In this document: piece after piece, positions 3,158 to 31,520 of the stretch
Layout of the letters: each line of letters starts with the position of its first letter
How positions within the stretch are numbered: position 1 is the first letter of the stretch
Origin: Nitrospira sp.
GTDB taxonomy: Bacteria; Nitrospirota; Nitrospiria; Nitrospirales; Nitrospiraceae
Direction of reading: 5' to 3'
Length of the DNA stretch: 42,329 nucleotides
Assembly: GCA_030692565.1 (NCBI GenBank)
Contig: JAUYAO010000024.1
Span: 1-42,329, forward strand
Notes under the pieces: generated by a model
The model's database searches: none
What the model saw: the letters and a program-made list of their open reading frames with translations, nothing else
Told to the model about the DNA's origin: nothing
Program-made: the position numbers and the translations under genes

Positions 3158-4855
3158 ATGACGTCTAAGCTTTGGGTGTTTCGTGATATCGATCCCGGCC
3201 GGCGGGCGACATTGGCCCGGGCCTTGTCGATCTCGCCTGCGACGGCAGGCCTACTGTTAGCGCGCGGCGTCACCACGCCTGATGAAGCCACCGCCTGGAT
3301 GACCCCGCTCCGTGCGCACGATCCCTTTTTGATCCCCGACATCGAAGCGGCCATCGATCGATTGCACTATGCCGTGCAGCATAGTGAGCGGGTCTGTTTC
3401 TATGGCGACTACGATGTGGATGGTATGTCGGCTACGAGTATTTATTATTCGTTCTTCCGCGGGCTCGGCGCCAACGCACAAGCCTATGTGCCGCATCGGG
3501 TTCGGGAGGGATACGGGCTGAATGAAGGGGCGGTGCGGGCGCTGGCCGCGGAGGGGGTGAAGCTGCTGGTCACCTCGGATTGCGGGACCACCTCACACCA
3601 TGAAATAGCCGTCGCCAATCAGTTGGGGATGGATGTCATTGTGACCGACCACCATCAGACGGATGAGCAAATGCCGCCGGCGCTGGCGGTCATGAATCCC
3701 CATCGGCGGGAGGCGCGCTATCCGTTCCGCGGGCTCTGCTCCGGTGGATTAGCCTATAAGGTGGCCGATGCCTACCGGCAGCGCTACGGTCAGGGAACGG
3801 TGGCGCTCGACTCGCTGCTGGATCTGGTGGCCTTGTCGACGATCGCCGATGTCGTGCCGTTGCAGGATGAGAATCGGGGATTTGTTCAGGAAGGCTTGCG
3901 GCAATTGTCGCGTGGGACGCGCTGCGGGATTCGCGCGTTGAAGCAGGTCGCCGGAGTCACTCGCGAGTGCACTTCGGAGACGGTGGGATTCAAGCTCGGG
4001 CCCAGGCTGAATGCGGCAGGGCGCTTGGATCATGCGATCAAAGGTGTACAGTTGCTGACCACCGAGTCCGAATCGGAGGCGATGCAACTCGCACAGGAGC
4101 TTGAACAACTCAATCGGCGCCGGCAGGATCTTGAAGCTGAGATCATGCGGGAGGCCGTCGCGATGCTTGAGGGTGGCGAGGTGCCGGCGGCGATTGTCCT
4201 GGCGTCCCGCGGTTGGCATCTCGGTGTGGTGGGGATTGTGGCCGCGCGGTTGATGGAGCGCTATCATCGCCCGGCGATTGTGATGGCCATCAATGAGCAG
4301 GGGATCGGCAAAGGATCGGCCAGGACCATCCCAGGATTTGATCTCTATCAAGCCTTGGCCTCGTGCAAGGATCTGCTCGTGGCTTTCGGCGGGCACCCCA
4401 GCGCAGCGGGGATGACGATTCACGAATCTCGATTGCCGGAATTCCAAGCACGGTTCGCGGCGGTGGCTGGAGCCTGGTCCTCGACGGGAAATGTGGTCCC
4501 TACGCTGCACCTCGACTCTGAAGTGTCGCTAACGGAAGTCAATATGCGCCTCATCCAGGAAATCGGATCGCTGCATCCATTCGGGGCGGGGAATCCTGAA
4601 CCGATGTTTGCCGTGAAGGGATTGGCGATCATGGAGGCGCGCGTCGTCGGCGAGAAACATTTGAAAATGACGGTCCGGCAGGGGCGGTCGCTGCCGTTCG
4701 ACAGTATCGGGTTTGGCATGAAGTCATTGTCGGAACAGGGCCTGACGCTCAACCAGCCGGTGGATCTGGCTTTTACGCCAGAGATCAATCACTGGAACGG
4801 GCACGACCGCATTCAATTGCGCATCCGGGATATGCGCGCGACGGCGAGGGAGTAA
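3158..4855 (+). CDS. recJ: Single-stranded-DNA-specific exonuclease RecJ
   Basis: RecJ is a DHH-superfamily 5'-3' ssDNA exonuclease of recombination and mismatch repair. The 565-residue product has the family's usual length. The DHH domain shows the metal-binding DYDVDG motif (D84, D86, D88), the TSDCG motif and DHH at residues 164-166. Later come STIADVVPL, RLNAAGRLDHA, and the DHHA1 region with GWHLGVVGIVAARL and FGGHPSAAGMT. A C-terminal OB-like region ends the protein. The start ATG at 3158 has a weak GAGG upstream; an ATG at 3154 is out of frame. The rel gene follows after 7 bp, suggesting cotranscription. Confidence 0.95.
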   Translation: MTSKLWVFRDIDPGRRATLARALSISPATAGLLLARGVTTPDEATAWMTPLRAHDPFLIPDIEAAIDRLHYAVQHSERVCFYGDYDVDGMSATSIYYSFFRGLGANAQAYVPHRVREGYGLNEGAVRALAAEGVKLLVTSDCGTTSHHEIAVANQLGMDVIVTDHHQTDEQMPPALAVMNPHRREARYPFRGLCSGGLAYKVADAYRQRYGQGTVALDSLLDLVALSTIADVVPLQDENRGFVQEGLRQLSRGTRCGIRALKQVAGVTRECTSETVGFKLGPRLNAAGRLDHAIKGVQLLTTESESEAMQLAQELEQLNRRRQDLEAEIMREAVAMLEGGEVPAAIVLASRGWHLGVVGIVAARLMERYHRPAIVMAINEQGIGKGSARTIPGFDLYQALASCKDLLVAFGGHPSAAGMTIHESRLPEFQARFAAVAGAWSSTGNVVPTLHLDSEVSLTEVNMRLIQEIGSLHPFGAGNPEPMFAVKGLAIMEARVVGEKHLKMTVRQGRSLPFDSIGFGMKSLSEQGLTLNQPVDLAFTPEINHWNGHDRIQLRIRDMRATARE

Positions 4856-4862
4856 CGCGTCG

Positions 4863-7028
4863 ATGGTCTACGAAACCGTCACCGATATCGATCAGCTCCT
4901 CGACCGTGTGCGGAGCTATCAGCCGGAGGCCGACCTCAGTCTGGTGCGCAAGGCCTATGACTTTTCCGCCAAAGCGCATGAGGGTCAAACGCGCCGTTCC
5001 GGCGAGCCCTACGTGCAGCATCCGGTCGCCGTCGCCGGCGTGCTGACGCTGCTTAAGACCGATGTGGCGGCGGTGGTGGCGGGACTGCTGCACGACACCT
5101 TAGAAGACACGGTAGCGACGCCGGCCGAGCTGGAGCGCGAGTTCGGGAAAGAAGTGGTCCATCTGGTCGACGGAGTGACCAAGATCGGCAAGATCACGTT
5201 CCGGAGCTATGAAGAGAAGCAGGCGGAGAATTTTCGCAAGATGGTCCTGTCGATGGCGGACGATATCCGCGTCGTCATCATCAAGCTGGCGGATCGCCTC
5301 CACAATATGCGGACGCTCGAACATTTGAGCGAGGCCAAACGCCTGGAGATTGCCCAGGAGACCCTGGAGATTTATGCCCCGCTCGCGAACCGGATCGGGA
5401 TCGGGTGGGTGAAAAACGAACTGGAAGACTTGTGTCTCAAGCACCTCAAGCCTGATGTGTACGAAATGCTGCGGGTGCGCGTCGCGAAGCGCGATGAAGA
5501 CCGGGAACAGTACATTCAGGAAGTGCGCGATCTGGTCGAAAAGGCGCTGACCGACGTCGGGTTGCAGGGGACGGTGTACGGGCGCCCGAAGCATCTGTAC
5601 GGCATCTATCAGAAGATGAATAAGCAGGATATTTCCTTTGAGGAAGTCTACGACCTCACGGCCTTGCGGATCATCACCGATACGAAGATGAACTGTTACG
5701 CCTTGCTCGGGGTGATCCATTCGCTCTGGCGCCCGCTGCCAGGCCGGTTCAAGGACTATATCGCGATTCCCAAATCCAACCTCTATCAATCCCTGCACAC
5801 GACGGTGGTCGGGCCGAAAGGCGAGCACGTCGAGTTCCAGATTCGAACCGACGAAATGCATCGCGTGGCTGAATACGGGATCGCGGCGCATTGGAAATAC
5901 AAAGAACAGGACAAAGTTGCCGAGAAGGATAGCAAGGCGTTCGGCTGGCTGCGCCAGTTTGTCGAGTGGCACACCGATTTGCCGGACAACCGTCAGTTCA
6001 TGGATTCCGTCAAGCTCGAGTTGTTTCACGACGTGGTCTACGTGTTTACGCCCAAGGGGATCGTGAAGGAACTGCCCAAGGGATCCACGCCGGTCGACTT
6101 CGCTTATGCCATTCATACGGAAGTCGGCGATCATTGTGTCGGGGCCAAGGTCAACGGCAAGATTGTGCCTTTAAAGCATCAAGTGACGAGCGGGGATACG
6201 GTTGAAATCCTCACGTCGCCGAACCAGACGCCGCATAAAGACTGGCTCAAGTTCGTCCGGACCTCGCGCGCCAAGACAAAAATCAAACATTGGGTCAAAG
6301 CCGAAGAACAAACGCGCAGCATCGACATCGGGCGGCGTCTCTTGGAGTCGGAGTTGCGGCGCCACTCGTTTGCGCCGGCGCAGATGCTGCGGTCGGAGCA
6401 ACTATTGGAGGTGGCGCGGCAGCTCGGGCATGACACGCTCGACGAACTGATGGCGGCGGTGGGATTCGGCCATCTTGCGACGGCAGAGGTGATTGCGAAG
6501 CTGGTGACGCCGTCGCCGGGAGCTGCAGTGCCGGTTTCGACACCGAAGACCCCGGTCGGCAAATCCGACGACAAAGGCGTACGCGTCAAAGGCGCGCGCG
6601 ATCTTTTGATGCAGCTCTCCCGTTGCTGTAATCCGGTGCCGGGGGATCGGATTCTCGGGTACATCACGCGCGGCCGAGGGCTGACGATCCATTCCGTCGA
6701 TTGCCCCAATCTGGAAGCGCTGGATTACGATCGGGAACGGCTGGTCGAGGTGGAATGGGATACGGCGACGCCGGGGTCGCACCCGGTGAAAGTGTCGGTG
6801 ATGGCGGTCGACAAGACCGGGGTGTTGGCGAATGTATCATCCGCAATTGCGGAATGTCAGGCGAACATCAGCCGGGCGGAAATCGCGACGCGTGAAGACC
6901 GGAAGGCGGTGTTGGATTTTGTCGTCGAAGTCAATGACACGAAGCACATCAATCAGGTGCTGAAGGCGATTGAACGGGTCGACGGGGTGATCTCGGCGCG
7001 GCGTATTCGGGCGTGGCAGGGAAAATAG
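4863..7028 (+). CDS. rel: Bifunctional (p)ppGpp synthetase/hydrolase
   Basis: This enzyme makes and degrades the stringent-response alarmone. Domains in order: HD hydrolase with HDTLED at 77-82 and a later KLADRLHNMRT; synthetase with YGRPKHLYGIY and the RFKD motif at 295-298; TGS near 385-450 (VYVFTPKG); a region with conserved CCNPVPGD; and a C-terminal ACT domain. The RXKD form of the synthetase motif, together with the intact HD motif, marks a bifunctional Rel/SpoT rather than a synthesis-only RelA, which carries EXDD. The length of 721 is normal. It lies 7 bp after recJ and is probably in one transcript with it. No second long RSH gene is seen in the window. Confidence 0.95.
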   Translation: MVYETVTDIDQLLDRVRSYQPEADLSLVRKAYDFSAKAHEGQTRRSGEPYVQHPVAVAGVLTLLKTDVAAVVAGLLHDTLEDTVATPAELEREFGKEVVHLVDGVTKIGKITFRSYEEKQAENFRKMVLSMADDIRVVIIKLADRLHNMRTLEHLSEAKRLEIAQETLEIYAPLANRIGIGWVKNELEDLCLKHLKPDVYEMLRVRVAKRDEDREQYIQEVRDLVEKALTDVGLQGTVYGRPKHLYGIYQKMNKQDISFEEVYDLTALRIITDTKMNCYALLGVIHSLWRPLPGRFKDYIAIPKSNLYQSLHTTVVGPKGEHVEFQIRTDEMHRVAEYGIAAHWKYKEQDKVAEKDSKAFGWLRQFVEWHTDLPDNRQFMDSVKLELFHDVVYVFTPKGIVKELPKGSTPVDFAYAIHTEVGDHCVGAKVNGKIVPLKHQVTSGDTVEILTSPNQTPHKDWLKFVRTSRAKTKIKHWVKAEEQTRSIDIGRRLLESELRRHSFAPAQMLRSEQLLEVARQLGHDTLDELMAAVGFGHLATAEVIAKLVTPSPGAAVPVSTPKTPVGKSDDKGVRVKGARDLLMQLSRCCNPVPGDRILGYITRGRGLTIHSVDCPNLEALDYDRERLVEVEWDTATPGSHPVKVSVMAVDKTGVLANVSSAIAECQANISRAEIATREDRKAVLDFVVEVNDTKHINQVLKAIERVDGVISARRIRAWQGK

Positions 7029-25531: not shown

Positions 25532-26785
25532 ATGGGATGCCTTCCCCGTTCTCCTGTTGCAGTTGGTCGGGTCATAAGACTGATCAGTCTCTTCGTGGCA
25601 GCACTCCTCTCTCCCCACTGCGGAGTCGGGTACACCGTCTATAAATCAGAATCGAAGTTGGATCGGCTGGCCGTGCCGATGACCAAGGCGCAAGTGCTCG
25701 ACGAGATCGGTCGGCCTGATCGCGTCTTGCGGGACGATGGCCGGATGCTCGTCTGGGAATATTCCCTAACAACCCGCAATCAATGGCTTTATGAGCTCGG
25801 TCTCTGTCCGATCTCCGTCTGGATCGGCGGTTGTGTGATCTACCCCTTTACCAATATCGCCATGGAACGTCAGCGCGAGTATCCCCAGCATGTCGTGCTG
25901 GTGAATGAAGAGCTGTGTACGTGGGGTCCCCCGGTTGCCATCTTGCAGCGACGAAAGTCGTGTGAGGTGGCCGGCGTACCGCACGGCCGCACAGATGGCC
26001 GTACAGGCCGGCCTGAACCGGTCGTGACCGGGCTGGGGCCGATCAATCGGGAGACCATCGACCGCTACCGTACCATGGCGGTCATGTTGTTCGAAGACGG
26101 GCCGAATGCGCCGGGCTCCGGCTCGCGCGTGGCGGGGATTGTGACCACGTTGTTATTGGATCTTGATATGAACATGGTCGAGCGGTCCAAGCTCGACGAA
26201 GTGTTGAAGGAACAGGTGATTCAGCTGACTCATGCCGACGATGCCAATGTCTTGAAGGTCGGGAAGCTCGTCGGAGCCCACGCGATCATCGTCGGCGGCG
26301 TGCAGCAATGGGAGCAGCACGAGCAGGCGCGCACGAGCAGCGTGTCGCTGTCGTTGCGGATGATCGACGTCGAGACCGGACAGCTCCTGTTCAACGGCGA
26401 AGGCCATTTGACCGACCCCACACGGGACGATGCGGAGAGTGCGGCGCGGCTGATCGTGCATCGCATCCTGGCGCGATTCGGTTCCCAGACCGGGCTTTTG
26501 GGGTCGGGGCGCATCGGTGTGAATTGGGAGCTGCTCGAATCGGGCGGCTCCCGCTACTATGCGGTGCGAGAATTGCGCAGCGGTCTTCCGGCGGAGAAAG
26601 CCGGACTGCATGTCGGAGATGAAGTTGTCGGCTGTAACGGTTCTTCACTTGCGGGGGTGAAATCAGAACGCGAAGCCAAGCGGCTCTGCCAGATCGAGGC
26701 GGGGCAGTCCTTGAAGCTTGATATCCGCCGTGCCGGCTCACCACTCGAACTTGGCATCGTGGCGGAACCGAGACCGGGGCTATAG
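25532..26785 (+). CDS. BamE-like/CsgG-like/PDZ envelope protein
   Basis: A 417-residue protein with an apparent signal sequence (LISLFVAALLSPHC); the Cys could be lipidated but SPHC is not a canonical lipobox. Three regions follow: a SmpA/BamE-like segment (MTKAQVLDEIGRPDRVLRDD), a CsgG/curli-type domain (about 190-300, with VVERSKLDEVL-like MNMVERSKLDEVLKEQ and VGAHAIIVGGVQQW), and a C-terminal PDZ domain (LPAEKAGLHVGDEVVGCNG). It is probably an envelope assembly or stress-sensing protein. The combination is unusual. The WYL regulator begins 5 bp downstream, but composition changes there. Confidence 0.75.
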   Translation: MGCLPRSPVAVGRVIRLISLFVAALLSPHCGVGYTVYKSESKLDRLAVPMTKAQVLDEIGRPDRVLRDDGRMLVWEYSLTTRNQWLYELGLCPISVWIGGCVIYPFTNIAMERQREYPQHVVLVNEELCTWGPPVAILQRRKSCEVAGVPHGRTDGRTGRPEPVVTGLGPINRETIDRYRTMAVMLFEDGPNAPGSGSRVAGIVTTLLLDLDMNMVERSKLDEVLKEQVIQLTHADDANVLKVGKLVGAHAIIVGGVQQWEQHEQARTSSVSLSLRMIDVETGQLLFNGEGHLTDPTRDDAESAARLIVHRILARFGSQTGLLGSGRIGVNWELLESGGSRYYAVRELRSGLPAEKAGLHVGDEVVGCNGSSLAGVKSEREAKRLCQIEAGQSLKLDIRRAGSPLELGIVAEPRPGL

Positions 26786-26789
26786 ACCA

Positions 26790-27800
26790 GTGAGCAAGAA
26801 GACTGAGGCAAACCGAGGGCGGAGACCTAAAGCATATAGTCAAGCCGATCGCCTTGCCCGGATGATGCGGACTCTGGCGAGCCGAGCCGTGACCATTAAT
26901 GGTCTGGCTGACGAATTCGGGATTACCCGACGGCAGGTGTATCGTGACCTGACTGAAATTGAGAAAGAAGGACACCCCCTCGAACAGTCCGTTGGATCAG
27001 GCGAGAAGACGTGGCAATTGCCTCTTGGTTACAGAGGGCTCCCGCAAATTGCCATCACCCAGCATGAACTCATGTCGCTGCATTTAGCCAAGGAACATCT
27101 GGCCTATTTGAACGGCACGCCGTTTGCGGATGACCTCGACCGGGTAATTGAAAAAGTCGAGGCGGGGCTTCCCGCCAAAGTCGTCAATCATCTGGAGCGA
27201 ATCAGCCGTGTGTTCGCCCCAGTGCAGGGCCCGAAGCGCTCATACGCAAAGCAGAGTACGGTGCTGAATAATCTCAGGAAAGCACTGCTCTTGCAGCGTA
27301 CCGTAATTCTGCGCCATCAAACGCCGGATCACGACGAGCCGGTTTCGCATCGCATCGACCCCTATGTGCTTGTGTTGTATCAGTATGGCCTCTATGTGAT
27401 GGGATATTCGCATCGGGCTGGGGCGCAGCGCCTGTTTGCCGTCGAGCGAATTCGCCGTGTTCAAGTCACAGAAGAAGGTTTCGATATGCCGTCAGTTCCC
27501 TCGTGGGAGAAGATGTTTCGTAACAACTTTGGTTTGATTGACGAGCCACCCAAGACCGTCCGTATCTGGTTTAGCCAAGATGTGGCCTACCTGCTCAATG
27601 AACGCCAATGGCATCCGACCCAATCGCTCACGCAGCAAAACGATAAGTCCGTCATCGTCACTTTCCAGGCCGGTGGATTGGACGAGATTGCAACCTGGGT
27701 ACTATCCTGGGGTGCTGACGCCAAGGTCCTCGACCCGCCTGAACTGGTTAAAGACGTCACATCCAAACTTGCTCGCGCCAGAATTCGTTACGCTGACTAG
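26790..27800 (+). CDS. WYL-domain transcriptional regulator (YafY type)
   Basis: A 336-residue protein with an N-terminal winged helix (about 20-62; TINGLADEFGITRRQVYRDL) and a WYL domain (about 190-265) in which the core reads QYGLYVMGYSHR, followed by a WCX-like C-terminal domain. Such proteins sense a ligand, often nucleic acid, and are common regulators of defence and DNA-damage genes. GTG 26790 is chosen as the first start after the upstream stop; the ribosome-binding site is weak. It is the first gene of the accessory island and the obvious candidate to bind the GTGAC-N7-GTCAC elements found before three downstream genes. Confidence 0.88.
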   Translation: MSKKTEANRGRRPKAYSQADRLARMMRTLASRAVTINGLADEFGITRRQVYRDLTEIEKEGHPLEQSVGSGEKTWQLPLGYRGLPQIAITQHELMSLHLAKEHLAYLNGTPFADDLDRVIEKVEAGLPAKVVNHLERISRVFAPVQGPKRSYAKQSTVLNNLRKALLLQRTVILRHQTPDHDEPVSHRIDPYVLVLYQYGLYVMGYSHRAGAQRLFAVERIRRVQVTEEGFDMPSVPSWEKMFRNNFGLIDEPPKTVRIWFSQDVAYLLNERQWHPTQSLTQQNDKSVIVTFQAGGLDEIATWVLSWGADAKVLDPPELVKDVTSKLARARIRYAD

Positions 27801-27893: not shown

Positions 27894-28085
27894 ATGAGCG
27901 AAGGATTGTATTGGAATCAGCAGACGCAGGCGTTCCTGTCCGCGCATCCCTACGAGGAAGGGTGGAAAGTGTATACCTATACTGAGGAAGTCGCCGAGAG
28001 GCTCTTCTTGCGATTTCTCCCGGATTACTTGCGGGATAATGGATCTGCATCGATCAAACGGCGTGAAATCTCAAGGGTGATATGA
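27894..28085 (+). CDS. Small hypothetical protein coupled to AAA+ ATPase
   Basis: A 63-residue soluble protein (MSEGLYWNQQTQAFLSAHP...) with no recognised domain. A very strong GAGGAGGGGG site precedes the ATG. Its stop overlaps the next ATG as ATGA, so it is translated with the ATPase, possibly as an adaptor or subunit. It is the first gene behind shared-element copy 1. Confidence 0.75.
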   Translation: MSEGLYWNQQTQAFLSAHPYEEGWKVYTYTEEVAERLFLRFLPDYLRDNGSASIKRREISRVI

Positions 28086-29149
28086 TCGAGACTCCAGGGA
28101 AGTGTCACACCGTGGAGTGCGGTGTGCAGTGGGATATGAAGAACGAACTGAATGCCGCAAGCTGGAAAGGTCAGATCCACATCGAATGGGAACAGCAGCC
28201 GATTCATGTCTTCGCATTCACGGTCTCATGTGGGCACGGATGGAGGGACATCTTTATGCTAGCCACAAAGTCCAACTCAGCTATGAGAACGCTCCATCAA
28301 ACGCTTGCCCGCTACGCCAGCACGGTGCGAATGAAGTCGGCAGCTCGCGAAATTTACGTTGTGAATGGAGAGGACATTCAGATTAGGCCTGTGTTGTGGG
28401 ACGAGGTGCTGTTGCCTCCTGGATTTCTTGAGGATATTCGTTCAAACGTAGTGGGATTCTTTCGTAGCGGGGAGCTGTACCACAAACTGGGACTCCCATA
28501 TCGCAGAGGATTTTTATTTACGGGTCCTCCAGGATGTGGCAAAACGGCCACGCTCATAGCATTGGCTACGAACATACCGGCCAAGTTTATTACCGTGCAT
28601 GGGCGGTTTGATGTAAGAGACGACCACATTGAACAAGCTCTGTACGTAGCAAATAAGCACGCACCGGCGGTAATTCTGCTTGAAGATCTGGATAAACTGA
28701 TTGCTTCCGAAAAGATCTCCCTCGCGCATTTGCTGAACATGCTTGATGGACTGAAGGATGCGAACGGCGTGCTGATCATCGCGACGTCGAATGAGCCGCA
28801 AAAGCTTGATCCCGCGTTGCTGCATCGGCCCAGCAGATTCGATCGTATCTGGAGATTCCCTCTGCCTCGGTACGAGCAGCGGCTTGCGTTGCTAGGCCAG
28901 CTGTCTGGAGACCGGTTCTCGGAGCAGGCCTTGCGAGAAGTCGCTCGACAGTCGGAAGGGCTCTCAATGGCCTATGTGCAGGAAATTGTGGTGAATGCTG
29001 TGCTGCGATGTGTCGAGGATGGCGTAGTGCCGGACGATGAAACGCTCCAAAGGAGTATGGAGGCGATGCGCGCTCAACGGAAGTCCGCCTCAAAAGACGA
29101 CGAATCGCTGATTGAGCGGGAAAGCGTCGGGTTTTTCCAGCCGGTGTAA
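28082..29149 (+). CDS. BCS1-like AAA+ ATPase
   Basis: A 355-residue protein. Residues 1-130 are an unrecognised N-terminal domain; then a single AAA+ module has Walker A GPPGCGKT (148-155), Walker B VILLEDLD (197-204), sensor IIATSNEP (232-239) and arginine finger RPSRFDR (249-255). The AAA+ sequence is close to BCS1/FtsH-type modules but there is no membrane segment and no protease domain. It probably remodels a protein partner. It overlaps the 63-residue gene by 4 bp. It is not a proteasomal ARC/Mpa, since it lacks the coiled coil and C-terminal GQYL-type tail. Confidence 0.88.
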   Translation: MIETPGKCHTVECGVQWDMKNELNAASWKGQIHIEWEQQPIHVFAFTVSCGHGWRDIFMLATKSNSAMRTLHQTLARYASTVRMKSAAREIYVVNGEDIQIRPVLWDEVLLPPGFLEDIRSNVVGFFRSGELYHKLGLPYRRGFLFTGPPGCGKTATLIALATNIPAKFITVHGRFDVRDDHIEQALYVANKHAPAVILLEDLDKLIASEKISLAHLLNMLDGLKDANGVLIIATSNEPQKLDPALLHRPSRFDRIWRFPLPRYEQRLALLGQLSGDRFSEQALREVARQSEGLSMAYVQEIVVNAVLRCVEDGVVPDDETLQRSMEAMRAQRKSASKDDESLIERESVGFFQPV

Positions 29150-29464: not shown

Positions 29465-30325
29465 GTGGTTATTGACTTGTATCCTGGAGTATCTGTGAAG
29501 ATGGAAGAAGTCGACAACTTATTCCGAGATATCCGGATCATCCTAGGCGAAGAGTATTGCAATAATAATGTCGGCAGCATTTTCTATTCTGGGGTACAGG
29601 CGCTTCAGGAGGGACCGTTTTATTTGATGGGGTGGAACCCCGGTGGCGATCCGAAAAAGACCGACACAACGATTGCCAAATCATTAAATCGCTGGCTTGA
29701 CTATCCACCAAACTGGTCTGAGTACACACATGAGCGATGGAAGACTCCTGCAGAGCCTATTCAGGTCGAAGGGCCTCTCGACCTGAAGGAAATGACCCAG
29801 CATCAGAGAAATGTGGTTTACTTTTGCCACACAGTGTTAAAGCAAGATGTAAGACGGGTCTTTTCGGCAAACGCCGTATCCCTACGAACGCCGAAGGGGG
29901 AGCAGCTTCCTAAAGATGTGGCGATGGGGAAGTGGTGGGAGTTACACAGGCTTCTAATGTCACATGTCCGTCCAAAAGTACTGATATGTTTGGGGCATGA
30001 TCCTAAGCCTTCGGCTTCTTCATTCGCTCTAGTTCAGAAGTGGCTTGATATTAAAGTACAGCCCGAGAAGCAACCCTGTGGTCAGAAAGGGAAAAGCCAA
30101 GTGGTTGTGAGATATTTTCCTGAGCCCATTCTCATCAGGCTCAAGGATGGCCTGGAGCCAATAGAGTGTGCTGTTATAGGAATTCCTCATCCAAGTTTCC
30201 ATTGGTACCCCAGGCTAGAGCGATTTGCAGATAGCATTCATCGTGTGCTGAAAGCATTGCATCGTGACCACTTGATGGGTTCGCACGAAATACCTCAATT
30301 TATCGAGGGAACTCCTGATCATTAA
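29465..30325 (+). CDS. UDG-fold-like hypothetical protein
   Basis: A 286-residue protein showing the spacing of uracil-DNA-glycosylase-superfamily motifs: GWNPGGDP (56-63) resembling motif A (GxNPG), a central strand VLICLGHDP (172-180), and IPHPSFHWYPR with HPS at 242-244 resembling motif B. It matches no named UDG family that I know and could be a nucleotide-hydrolase relative. GTG 29465 opens the frame with GCGAGG nearby; ATG 29501 is an alternative. The coding sequence is clearly AT-richer than the flanking core genes, a sign of transfer. No copy of the shared element lies directly before it. Confidence 0.7.
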   Translation: MVIDLYPGVSVKMEEVDNLFRDIRIILGEEYCNNNVGSIFYSGVQALQEGPFYLMGWNPGGDPKKTDTTIAKSLNRWLDYPPNWSEYTHERWKTPAEPIQVEGPLDLKEMTQHQRNVVYFCHTVLKQDVRRVFSANAVSLRTPKGEQLPKDVAMGKWWELHRLLMSHVRPKVLICLGHDPKPSASSFALVQKWLDIKVQPEKQPCGQKGKSQVVVRYFPEPILIRLKDGLEPIECAVIGIPHPSFHWYPRLERFADSIHRVLKALHRDHLMGSHEIPQFIEGTPDH

Positions 30326-30507: not shown

Positions 30508-30846
30508 ATGGGTTGCATAAATCTCAGCGACATGAGCCAGTTCCTTGAGGAATTACGGCGAGATCGCCTAATTGTCGAGAGACGCCTGGTTCGGATGGTC
30601 GAAGTCGAGAATGAAGGATTTTGGTGTTCTGAAGTCCGGCGTAAGCACCTGATCGTAACGGCTCGGGTAGGGCAGGACATCTTGCGGCTCGATCAGTTTT
30701 ATAGCCCGCCATCTGGTAACGAAGAGCATGACAGTCTATTGGCTCAGGCAATGTCGAGCCATCTCGCTCAGCTTCAGGAGGCATGTCAGGAATTAGGGAT
30801 CGAGATCCGACACGGCGTCTTAGAGGAAGGTGTAGCTGTCGGATGA
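30508..30846 (+). CDS. Hypothetical protein, 112 residues
   Basis: A soluble charged protein beginning MGCINLSDMSQFLEEL, with a helix-strand pattern and no recognisable motif. AGAGGAAG precedes the ATG. It stands alone behind shared-element copy 2. Its membership in the WYL-linked set is inferred only from that element. Confidence 0.65.
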   Translation: MGCINLSDMSQFLEELRRDRLIVERRLVRMVEVENEGFWCSEVRRKHLIVTARVGQDILRLDQFYSPPSGNEEHDSLLAQAMSSHLAQLQEACQELGIEIRHGVLEEGVAVG

Positions 30847-30959: not shown

Positions 30960-30996
30960 GTGTGACTTAGTCTGTCCCAGGTGTATGCGAGACTCC
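30960..30996 (+). promoter_or_regulatory. Shared island element, copy 3
   Basis: GTGAC (30962-30966), TTAGTCT, GTCCC (30974-30978), then ATGCGAGACTCC at 30985-30996, exactly 23 bp from the start of the repeat as in copy 1. One base of the right half differs. The ATG of the zinc-finger gene lies 44 nt downstream. Confidence 0.7.
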
Positions 30997-31022
30997 TTTC
31001 TCAGAAGAAAAGGAGACAGAAC

Positions 31023-31520
31023 ATGCTTAGCAGACGTGCTCTATTCAGGATGATTGCTGCGGTCGGATTCGGCTCTATCTTCAGGACAAAGGCAGTCAAC
31101 GCGCCTCCATTGTTGTCGGGCCGCAACACGAACAGAATGTCTGACGCTTCTTGCCCCGAAAACTCGCTCGTCGAGGTACCTCAAGGGCTTGATGCCCATC
31201 TGCGGGCGCTCATGCAATGGGAAGAACTGCGGTGTGGCCTCGACGGCGCGGAACTTGTGAGGCGCTATACCTTGCTGGATGAGGTCACGGAACGGATGCT
31301 TCCGCCTGAGCGCTTAAGAGGCCGGTGTCCTTTTTGCCCTACACGCTTTGACTCGTTTCTTGTCTATTACGACACCAATTCATTTTACTGTGAGGAATGT
31401 GAAGCTGAGGGGACGATTGTAGATTTTTACGCCAGGATGGAAGGTATTCCTTATAGAGAAGCGCTGTCTCACTTGCTAAACCTTCTTGACTCGAACCAGT
31501 TAAAAGGGCGGTTTAGGTAG
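31023..31520 (+). CDS. Stand-alone primase-type (CHC2-like) zinc-finger protein with Tat-like N-terminus
   Basis: A 165-residue protein. The C-terminal part resembles the DnaG zinc finger: C102-P-F-C105, then about 17 residues, C123-E-E-C126, and the following [22 protein letters not shown], which matches the post-finger helix of primases. No TOPRIM catalytic domain follows. The N-terminus [17 protein letters not shown] looks like a twin-arginine signal, which is hard to reconcile with a DNA-binding finger. A later ATG at 31137 lacks a ribosome-binding site, whereas 31023 has AGGAG. Its last 8 bp overlap the end of a duplicated uvrA fragment on the other strand. Confidence 0.75.

Follow-up and report, generated by a model that had tools for sequence, protein, structure and literature searches.

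A predicted new branch of the UDG superfamily in the variable slot of WYL-headed loci in Nitrospira and related genera

The locus and its UDG-like gene

The window analysed here is a stretch of 42,329 nucleotides from Nitrospira sp. (contig JAUYAO010000024.1). The locus under study carries, in order, genes for a WYL regulator, an AAA ATPase, a small protein, a UDG-like protein, a 112-aa protein, a truncated CHC2/DnaG-like protein and a DUF3597 protein, followed by a toxin-antitoxin-like pair and uvrA, both of which were named by eye (Table 1). It lies beside a lipoprotein gene and uvrA, a site common to loci with a Tat-leader DnaG-like protein such as those of G086 and G116 (G numbers denote genomes, and L numbers loci and their proteins). 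The AAA gene, which is a single ORF in relatives, is split in the window into two overlapping ORFs, and this may reflect a frameshift, decay or an assembly error. Given that the AAA gene is split and the CHC2 gene truncated, the window copy may be decaying. Of 196 genomes of the group, 8 encode the small protein, the window's own included. It accompanies an intact UDG-like gene in G000 (the window's own genome), G069 and G113 and a remnant in G095, and is found in G052, G078, G086 and G089 with no UDG-like gene of this family.

Table 1. Features of the window locus, with positions in the window.
Feature	Position	Strand	Remarks
HTH-WYL-WCX transcriptional regulator	26718..27800	+	relatives upstream in G113, G069, G028
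63-aa ORF	27894..28085	+	by eye like the N-terminus of the G028 AAA protein
AAA ATPase	28082..29149	+	Pfam AAA 3.5e-23; PADLOC IetA 1.1e-16
Small protein, 78 aa	29175..29411	+	upstream of slot
Predicted UDG-superfamily protein, new branch	29465..30325	+	286 aa; likely 274 aa from ATG 29501
Motifs of the UDG-like protein (residues)			motif A G56-W-N58-P-G-G61; strand 2 end Asn136; W158/H161; strand 3 end CLG175-177; motif B HPS 242-244
112-aa protein, unassigned family	30508..30846	+	weak relatives beside AAA gene at G000:C58, G109
Truncated CHC2 zinc-finger / DnaG-like protein, Tat-like leader	30981..31520	+	matches positions 1-154 of a 424-position profile

Two side observations concern these neighbours. 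A Tat-type RR leader, which is odd for a primase-like protein, is carried by DnaG-like proteins (CHC2 and/or DNAG_N) in the window (30981-31520) and at L010:8089-9345, L076:6723-7967 and L078:4952-6238. The same genome also holds a second WYL-AAA locus (G000:C58:232000-243000; L136), with a relative of the 112-aa protein and a PD-(D/E)XK_4 gene in its slot, the slot being the position that the UDG-like gene takes in the window.

The UDG-like ORF singled out by the sequence-only reading is present at its noted position and opens with a GTG. The true start is probably the ATG at 29501 (residue 13), because a GGAG stands 11 bases upstream of it and a methionine is found there in all eleven aligned members of the family; in the other ten, this methionine is simply the start assigned in the analysis. 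As that reading had noted, GWNPGG (residues 56-61) precedes HPS (242-244), with a spacing of 186 residues (about 180 in the original estimate), and SAN (134-136) and CLG (175-177) lie between them. Shuffling the residues of the protein 200,000 times produced the order G.NPG...HPS in 5 cases, and among the 47 window ORFs of at least 150 aa it is unique to this one.

Fold and sequence relationships

The AF2 model of the window protein, built with 8 sequences, has a pLDDT of 80 and a pTM of 0.84. The hydrophobic strand proposed from the sequence at the centre of the protein is found in the model, but not as a single strand: there are four (52-56, 133-136, 172-176 and 233-240), each with a conserved motif at its end. 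When the model was compared with the PDB by Foldseek, ranks 1-41 were all members of the UDG superfamily (family 4, SMUG1, UdgX and TDG), and unrelated chains appeared from row 42. The best match was 4zby (E 1.1e-4), followed by SMUG1, UdgX and TDG; TM-scores of the five best rows were modest (0.38-0.42 by query length, 0.46-0.58 by target length). VIA aligned 179 residues of the model with 4zby at Z 12.3 and an rmsd of 3.8 A. A second model, of the sister-clade protein L020 from Micavibrio (pLDDT 83.9, pTM 0.85), gave family 4 or UdgX in rows 1-36 (top Z 11.8), and beyond row 36 MoeA and one SAHH-like chain among rows of TDG, Mug and SMUG2. A viral structure library held no match to the window-protein model at E<=0.001, its first row being a phage uracil-DNA glycosylase at 2.8e-3. 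The fold lists contained no Brig chain, an absence that carries no weight as evidence. The placement in the UDG superfamily proposed from the sequence has therefore come through structure prediction and fold search, in which UDG entries led for both models and neither was predicted to have another fold. Judged from these models, the window protein almost certainly has the UDG-superfamily fold.

The family was defined as a set of eleven proteins (A4), including the window protein, from the Nitrospira group, Alphaproteobacteria and Gammaproteobacteria. Left out of it were L006/L022 (a broken remnant), L009 (shortened by a stop and used in the first alignment, A1, only), L008 and H3 (repeats of L007) and the more distant L029. 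Conserved positions are L27, G37, Y53, G56, N58, P59, G60, G61, Q114, N136, W158, H161, V168, P170, G177, G239, H242 and S244, with N58, P59, G60, G61, N136, W158, H161, H242 and S244 identical in every member; the (C/T)(L/F)G motif is also kept in all eleven.

The gene is present in 6 of the 196 genomes of the group, its own included, with G095 carrying a remnant and G040 a weak match (E 6.5e-5). A scan of the genome collection yielded 8 loci from 63 candidate stretches, in Nitrospira (three, one a remnant), Belnapia, Vibrio, Shewanella, Micavibrio and Oceanimonas. Among 369 genomes of the class of Shewanella there were three matches: the Shewanella genome itself, the distant relative L029 and a false match, L030. 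Plasmid records with the gene numbered four (three of Roseomonas with equal score and one of Sphingobium), and phage records held no relatives of the window protein. A pattern scan of IMG/VR viral contigs found 8 stretches that fit, none of which was confirmed as a relative.

Sequence searches agree with the earlier statement that the protein fits no known UDG family. Pfam UDG (PF03167) scores the window protein at 12.1 bits (E 0.21), under the 24.3-bit cut-off, and NCBIfam, PADLOC and PHROGs gave no match for it. Across the family, Pfam UDG reaches E<=1 in 5/11 members (best 2.4e-4), and the highest score, 21.7 bits for L017, is still under the cut-off. The NCBIfam model UDG_fam4 matches 3/11 members (best 2.4e-4) and the archaeal type-4 model Arch_udg 2/11 (best 1.4e-5), these being E-values alone, given without model cut-offs. 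A direct search of PDB sequences with the window protein had KAT2B as its best match (E 0.0058). This was judged to be chance, so the family profile was used instead; its best PDB match was 4zbx (E 0.016), with Asn136 aligned on Asn82 of 4zbx (position counted by hand). In profile-profile comparison the family scored 4.4e-6 against family 4 (20 family-4-type sequences from related genomes) and, weakly, 0.0073 against family 2 (two Mug sequences). Scores against family 5 (ten sequences; 0.043) and family 1 (a single E. coli Ung; 0.25) were little or no better than those of four unrelated control profiles (E 0.13 to 0.46).

The conserved motifs were compared with the UDG families as defined in PMC10359453. 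By these definitions GxNPG is the motif A of families 2 and 3. For motif B, the nearest counterparts of HPS are those of families 1, 3 and 5. All eleven members carry GxNPGG in place of the family 1 (UNG) motif A, GQDPY. The G, N, P and G of the family 2 (Mug/TDG) motif GINPG are likewise found in 11/11, with W, L, F or M at the Ile position, while the family 2 motif B (MPSSSAR, or NPS with no His) differs from that of the family, which has His in 11/11. GxNPG as in the family 3 (SMUG1) motif GMNPG is universal, the exact GMNPG occurs once (L005), and the family 3 motif B HPSPRN is absent from all eleven, the closest form being HPSPRV in L007. Residue 243 is P or L, giving HPS in 6/11 members and HLS in 5/11. 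The motifs GE(A/G)PG of family 4 (UDGa), GLAPA of family 5 (UDGb) and GEQPG of UdgX are each found in 0/11, and KRRIH appears in none of the printed alignments. As aligned, the eleven-member family thus has the full motif set of no UDG family compared.

Families 4 and 5 bind a 4Fe-4S cluster through four cysteines. Cysteine is present in at least four of the eleven members only at columns 157 (10 members; Trp in the window protein), 175 (6), 133 and 215 (4 each). Since no set of four is common to the members, the cluster is very probably absent from the family.

Motif A resembles that of Mug/TDG and SMUG1, and the profile and models are nearest to family 4. With family 4 UDGa (Sulfolobus tokodaii, 4zby/4zbx) the window family shares the fold, the order of the four motif-bearing strands, the Asn82/Asn136 position and the motif-B His, but it differs in motif A, in lacking a conserved Fe-S cysteine set and in a longer stretch after motif A. 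With SMUG1 and Mug/TDG it shares the GxNPG core of motif A with its water-positioning Asn, as well as a SMUG1-type HPS in six members, but the full HPSPRN or MPSSSAR/NPS motif B is missing. A sequence link between the family and the UDG superfamily is provided by the distant relative L029 (L029:1372-2232, equal to L079:6624-7484 of G411), which has GLNPGG and HLS and scores 25.1 bits against the Pfam UDG cut-off of 24.3. The candidate L030 (G439) was dropped from the family as an ordinary family-4 UDG with GEAPG. Separately, L036 (G064, same genus) is family-4-like with KRRKH where UdgX has KRRIH, and is a possible UdgX.

A variable slot shared with restriction-type nucleases

The surroundings of the gene were surveyed across the 196 genomes. 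A search with the AAA protein found 15 loci in 14 genomes at E<=1e-60. The CHC2/DnaG-like search also picks up apparent ordinary DnaG (at least 180/196 genomes at 1e-15), and the Tat-leader type was defined by rows at 1e-45 or better, which covers 9 genomes among the matches listed. A WYL regulator lies upstream at most other AAA or CHC2 loci, again among the matches listed. Where the UDG-like gene is intact, the order is WYL, CHC2/DnaG-like protein with a Tat-like leader, small protein and UDG-like protein in G113 and G069, and WYL, AAA, UDG-like protein and PD-(D/E)XK_4 in G028, whose PD-(D/E)XK nuclease gene (PDC-S26) starts 15 bases after the UDG-like gene. A fifth intact copy in the phylum, in G040 (L013), has by eye no WYL, AAA or CHC2 gene beside it. 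A HEPN/MNT-like toxin-antitoxin pair, recognised by eye, adjoins the UDG-like locus of G069 (L011:6265-7066).

At AAA loci, the slot holds the window's family in G000:C24 and G028. PD-(D/E)XK_4 proteins are found in G028, where the gene follows the UDG-like one, in G061, where the assignment comes from homology to the protein of G028, and in G000:C58 (2.2e-28) and G042 (0.0021, below the cut-off); GmrSD is found in G010 (4e-40) and G056:C56 (1.5e-24; AAA gene broken). The slot protein of G016 matches DUF6942 and, weakly, UDG, and G029 has, by eye, a broken homologue of it; G018 has a GESH...HPS protein with no Pfam match, past transposase-like genes, and the slot proteins of G051 and G064 are unclassified. 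The HsdR-like gene of G063 is on the opposite strand and was not counted as a slot gene. In G036 and G109 the AAA gene is at other sites, followed in G109 by a 98-aa PIN-like ORF (by eye) and in G036 by no evident effector.

Tat-leader loci vary in the same manner. The window's UDG-like family occupies the slot in G113 and G069, and its broken remnant that in G095. Elsewhere the slot holds a different UDG-like protein (G086; Pfam UDG 0.0032), Mrr (G089; 7.6e-14) or an unclassified 193-aa protein (G052). G124 has DUF2779 and PD-(D/E)XK_4 genes, G116 has DUF2779 on the opposite strand and G056:C121 a lipase-like gene (by eye), also on the opposite strand. The occupants at L115, L132 and L076 have no meaningful Pfam match and are PD-(D/E)XK-like by eye only.

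Seven AAA loci (G016, G042, G061, G018, G056:C56, G000:C58 and G028) have equal flanks: WYL is preceded by an isoaspartyl-peptidase-like gene, and the slot is followed by a VOC-type gene (both by eye); the site is therefore fixed while its contents change. The AAA and Tat-leader loci have a variable slot in which the UDG-like protein is exchanged with restriction-type nucleases (PD-(D/E)XK_4, Mrr and GmrSD). Because relatives are few (6/196 genomes, with one remnant), the case for the slot is built on some two dozen loci.

Three further types of slot occupant are probable UDG-fold proteins, judging by sub-threshold Pfam UDG matches and weak profile scores. L078:6812-7543 has the order GQET..WTN..HPN (Pfam UDG sub-threshold, 0.0032), L125:5215-6006 has GIEE..SNL..CFG (sub-threshold 0.021, and passing DUF6942 with 28.3 bits at a cut-off of 27), and L130:9592-10332 has GESH..FYN..HPS with no Pfam match. 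Their plasmid relatives are hypothetical proteins, in 100 records for L130 (71 Escherichia; one covering at least 80% of the length), 5 for L078 and 1 for L125; Pfam UDG reached sub-threshold values for L141 (0.0056) and L145 (0.0088) and had no match for L142, L143, L144, L146 and L147. PDB sequence and profile searches with L078, L125 and L130 returned no UDG-superfamily entry, and IMG/VR scans no relatives. In profile-profile comparison the best value was 3e-4 against family 4 for the L125 type, 0.0071 against the window family with L029 for the L130 type and 0.0058 against family 5 for the L078 type, which scored 0.22 against the window family, no better than controls. These weak scores are mostly better than those of unrelated controls.

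PADLOC was run on ten chosen neighbours (from L021, L019 and L012) and on six window proteins. Outside the phylum, the Septu genes PtuA (a part, 1e-55; the ATPase is divided between two ORFs) and PtuB (1e-44) lie upstream in Oceanimonas, together with an NsnA-like gene (8.2e-36). In Shewanella the neighbours are E1-E2/JAB (7.7e-27) and a helicase resembling GajB (7.7e-48; the model covers helicases broadly). In Vibrio intestinalis (L018:1-10000), a 47-nt repeat is present in 14 copies, about one per gene, and the UDG-like gene (4568-5233) lies between copies at 4431 and 5231; from this layout the Vibrio copy reads as an integron-type cassette in a chromosomal integron-like array. The Roseomonas copy is beside an integrase and an AbrB/PIN pair. 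The Micavibrio (L020) and Belnapia loci have no evident defence gene by eye, and inspection by eye found no constant nuclease partner beside the UDG-like gene at loci outside the phylum.

Proposed function and relation to known systems

The reading favoured here, at a probability of roughly 60%, is a Brig-like antiviral glycosylase that is swapped for restriction nucleases in one regulated slot. It is drawn from the fold, the conservation of catalytic positions, the patchy and mobile distribution, the redundancy with other UDG genes and the exchange with nucleases. The redundancy consists of three further genes over the Pfam cut-off in the window's genome, by motif of family 4 (GEAPG), family 5 (GLAPA) and Mug type (GINPG, NPS); the window gene is therefore taken not to be a housekeeping one. 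The suggestion from the sequence of a base-excising effector is favoured by the slot exchange with restriction-type nucleases, the activity itself being predicted. Glycosylase activity of the window protein is likely, and an antiviral role is rather probable. A uracil-type substrate (U or 5-substituted U) is put forward tentatively. Control by the WYL protein and partnership with the neighbouring genes are presumed.

In Nitrospira and related genera, the proposed system would be a WYL-headed locus with an AAA or DnaG-like partner ahead of the effector slot. The UDG-like protein would act on invading DNA by flipping out a non-canonical base and hydrolysing its glycosidic bond, and the resulting abasic sites would then stop phage replication. 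In UDGs studied elsewhere, the motif-1 Asp/Asn is proposed to activate or position water and the motif-2 His stabilises the leaving base (PMC5387724). Asn58 of motif A would accordingly place the water in the window protein, and His242 of motif B would stabilise the leaving base. Asn136 is expected to read the Watson-Crick edge of the flipped base; in Tth UDGa, N80 is hydrogen-bonded to uracil twice, at N3 and at O4 (PMC5387724). Gly60 stands where UNG has the Tyr of GQDPY, and it would thus leave space for a group at C5.

Close known parallels are the anti-phage DNA glycosylases Brig1 (GenBank OR880862) and Brig3, which like the window family are UDG-superfamily proteins in defence neighbourhoods (PMC11078745, PMC13160076). 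The best match of Brig1 is also S. tokodaii UDG, in which Asn82 is the position of Brig1 Glu147, and E147A or E147Q affects immunity (PMC11078745); Brig3 has N50-P51 in its motif A and needs Asp127 (PMC13160076). The base-reading residue is Asn in all eleven members of the window family, as against E147 in Brig1 and D127 in Brig3, a comparison made through published residue numbers with the Brig3 equivalence taken from spacing. Because Asn136 replaces the Glu/Asp of Brig1/Brig3, a uracil- or thymine-type base is preferred to a modified cytosine as the predicted target. The passages on Brig cited here do not mention an exchange with nucleases in a slot behind a WYL-AAA/DnaG-like module, as seen for the window family. 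Brig2 is described as a Brig1 homologue acting on modified thymine, and Dag1/Dag2 as antiviral glycosylases of modified guanine (PMC13216743), the latter resembling the window protein in the antiviral glycosylase role that is predicted for it. The WYL regulator at the head of a variable, defence-like locus recalls the BrxR-family WYL-regulated defence islands (PMC9122601); the AAA/DnaG-like partner and small protein of window-type loci have no mention in the abstract of that work. DefensePredictor lists the UDG domain in predicted systems with not-yet-validated domains (PMC13092281).

A DNA-repair glycosylase specialised for uracil, for deaminated purines or for some other lesion, and without a defence role, is an improbable account of the family. 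The literature presents UDG families 1-6 as repair enzymes (PMC10359453, PMC5387724), Asn136 and His242 are uracil-type residues, and the G040 copy stands, by eye, apart from any WYL/AAA/CHC2 module. However, the genome is already served by family-4, family-5 and Mug-type genes, only 6/196 genomes of the group have the gene, and it is met on plasmids, in an integron-type array and in a slot common to restriction-type nucleases. The nuclease gene that starts just after the UDG-like gene in G028, together with the AAA or DnaG-like gene near four of the five intact loci of the phylum (window, G113, G069 and G028, not G040), would also suit a UDG-fold DNA-binding sensor, no longer catalytic, that directs a nuclease or ATPase partner. 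The invariance of the catalytic positions N58 and H242 in 11/11 members and the want of a constant nuclease partner outside the phylum (by eye) make such a sensor less probable still.

Least probable is a hydrolase of free nucleotides or of RNA bases, with nucleotide pools or RNA as its target in place of DNA. The distance from the motif-A Asn to the strand-2 Asn is long (78 residues in the window protein and 64 in L020, against 38 in Tth UDGa, from 42 to 80; PMC5387724), but nothing else points specifically to such a target, the best-ranked structural neighbours are DNA glycosylases and the alternative slot genes are DNA nucleases.

The antiviral glycosylase reading may be extended to the locus as a whole, although this wider picture is a tentative one. 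The loci could form a modular defence chassis, composed of WYL and either AAA or a Tat-leader DnaG-like protein, with a slot that interchanges restriction-type nucleases and at least three UDG-fold types. The window protein would then represent a new family of antiviral glycosylases with uracil-type recognition, possibly loaded or gated by its partner. Searches of the open-licence literature found no paper on WYL defence or phage loci of Nitrospira, nor one on an anti-phage glycosylase in the Vibrio parahaemolyticus integron. A 2025 preprint by Getz et al. reportedly announces, in its title, diverse antiviral glycosylases, and part of the window family may already be included there.

Antiviral DNA glycosylases are a recent finding (Brig1 in 2024, Brig3 in a 2026 preprint). 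The exchange of glycosylases and nucleases in one locus would point to base excision as an option regularly used in place of strand cutting. The contents of the slot offer a route to further antiviral glycosylases, and the predicted uracil-type pocket leads to a direct prediction of which modified phage DNA would be attacked.
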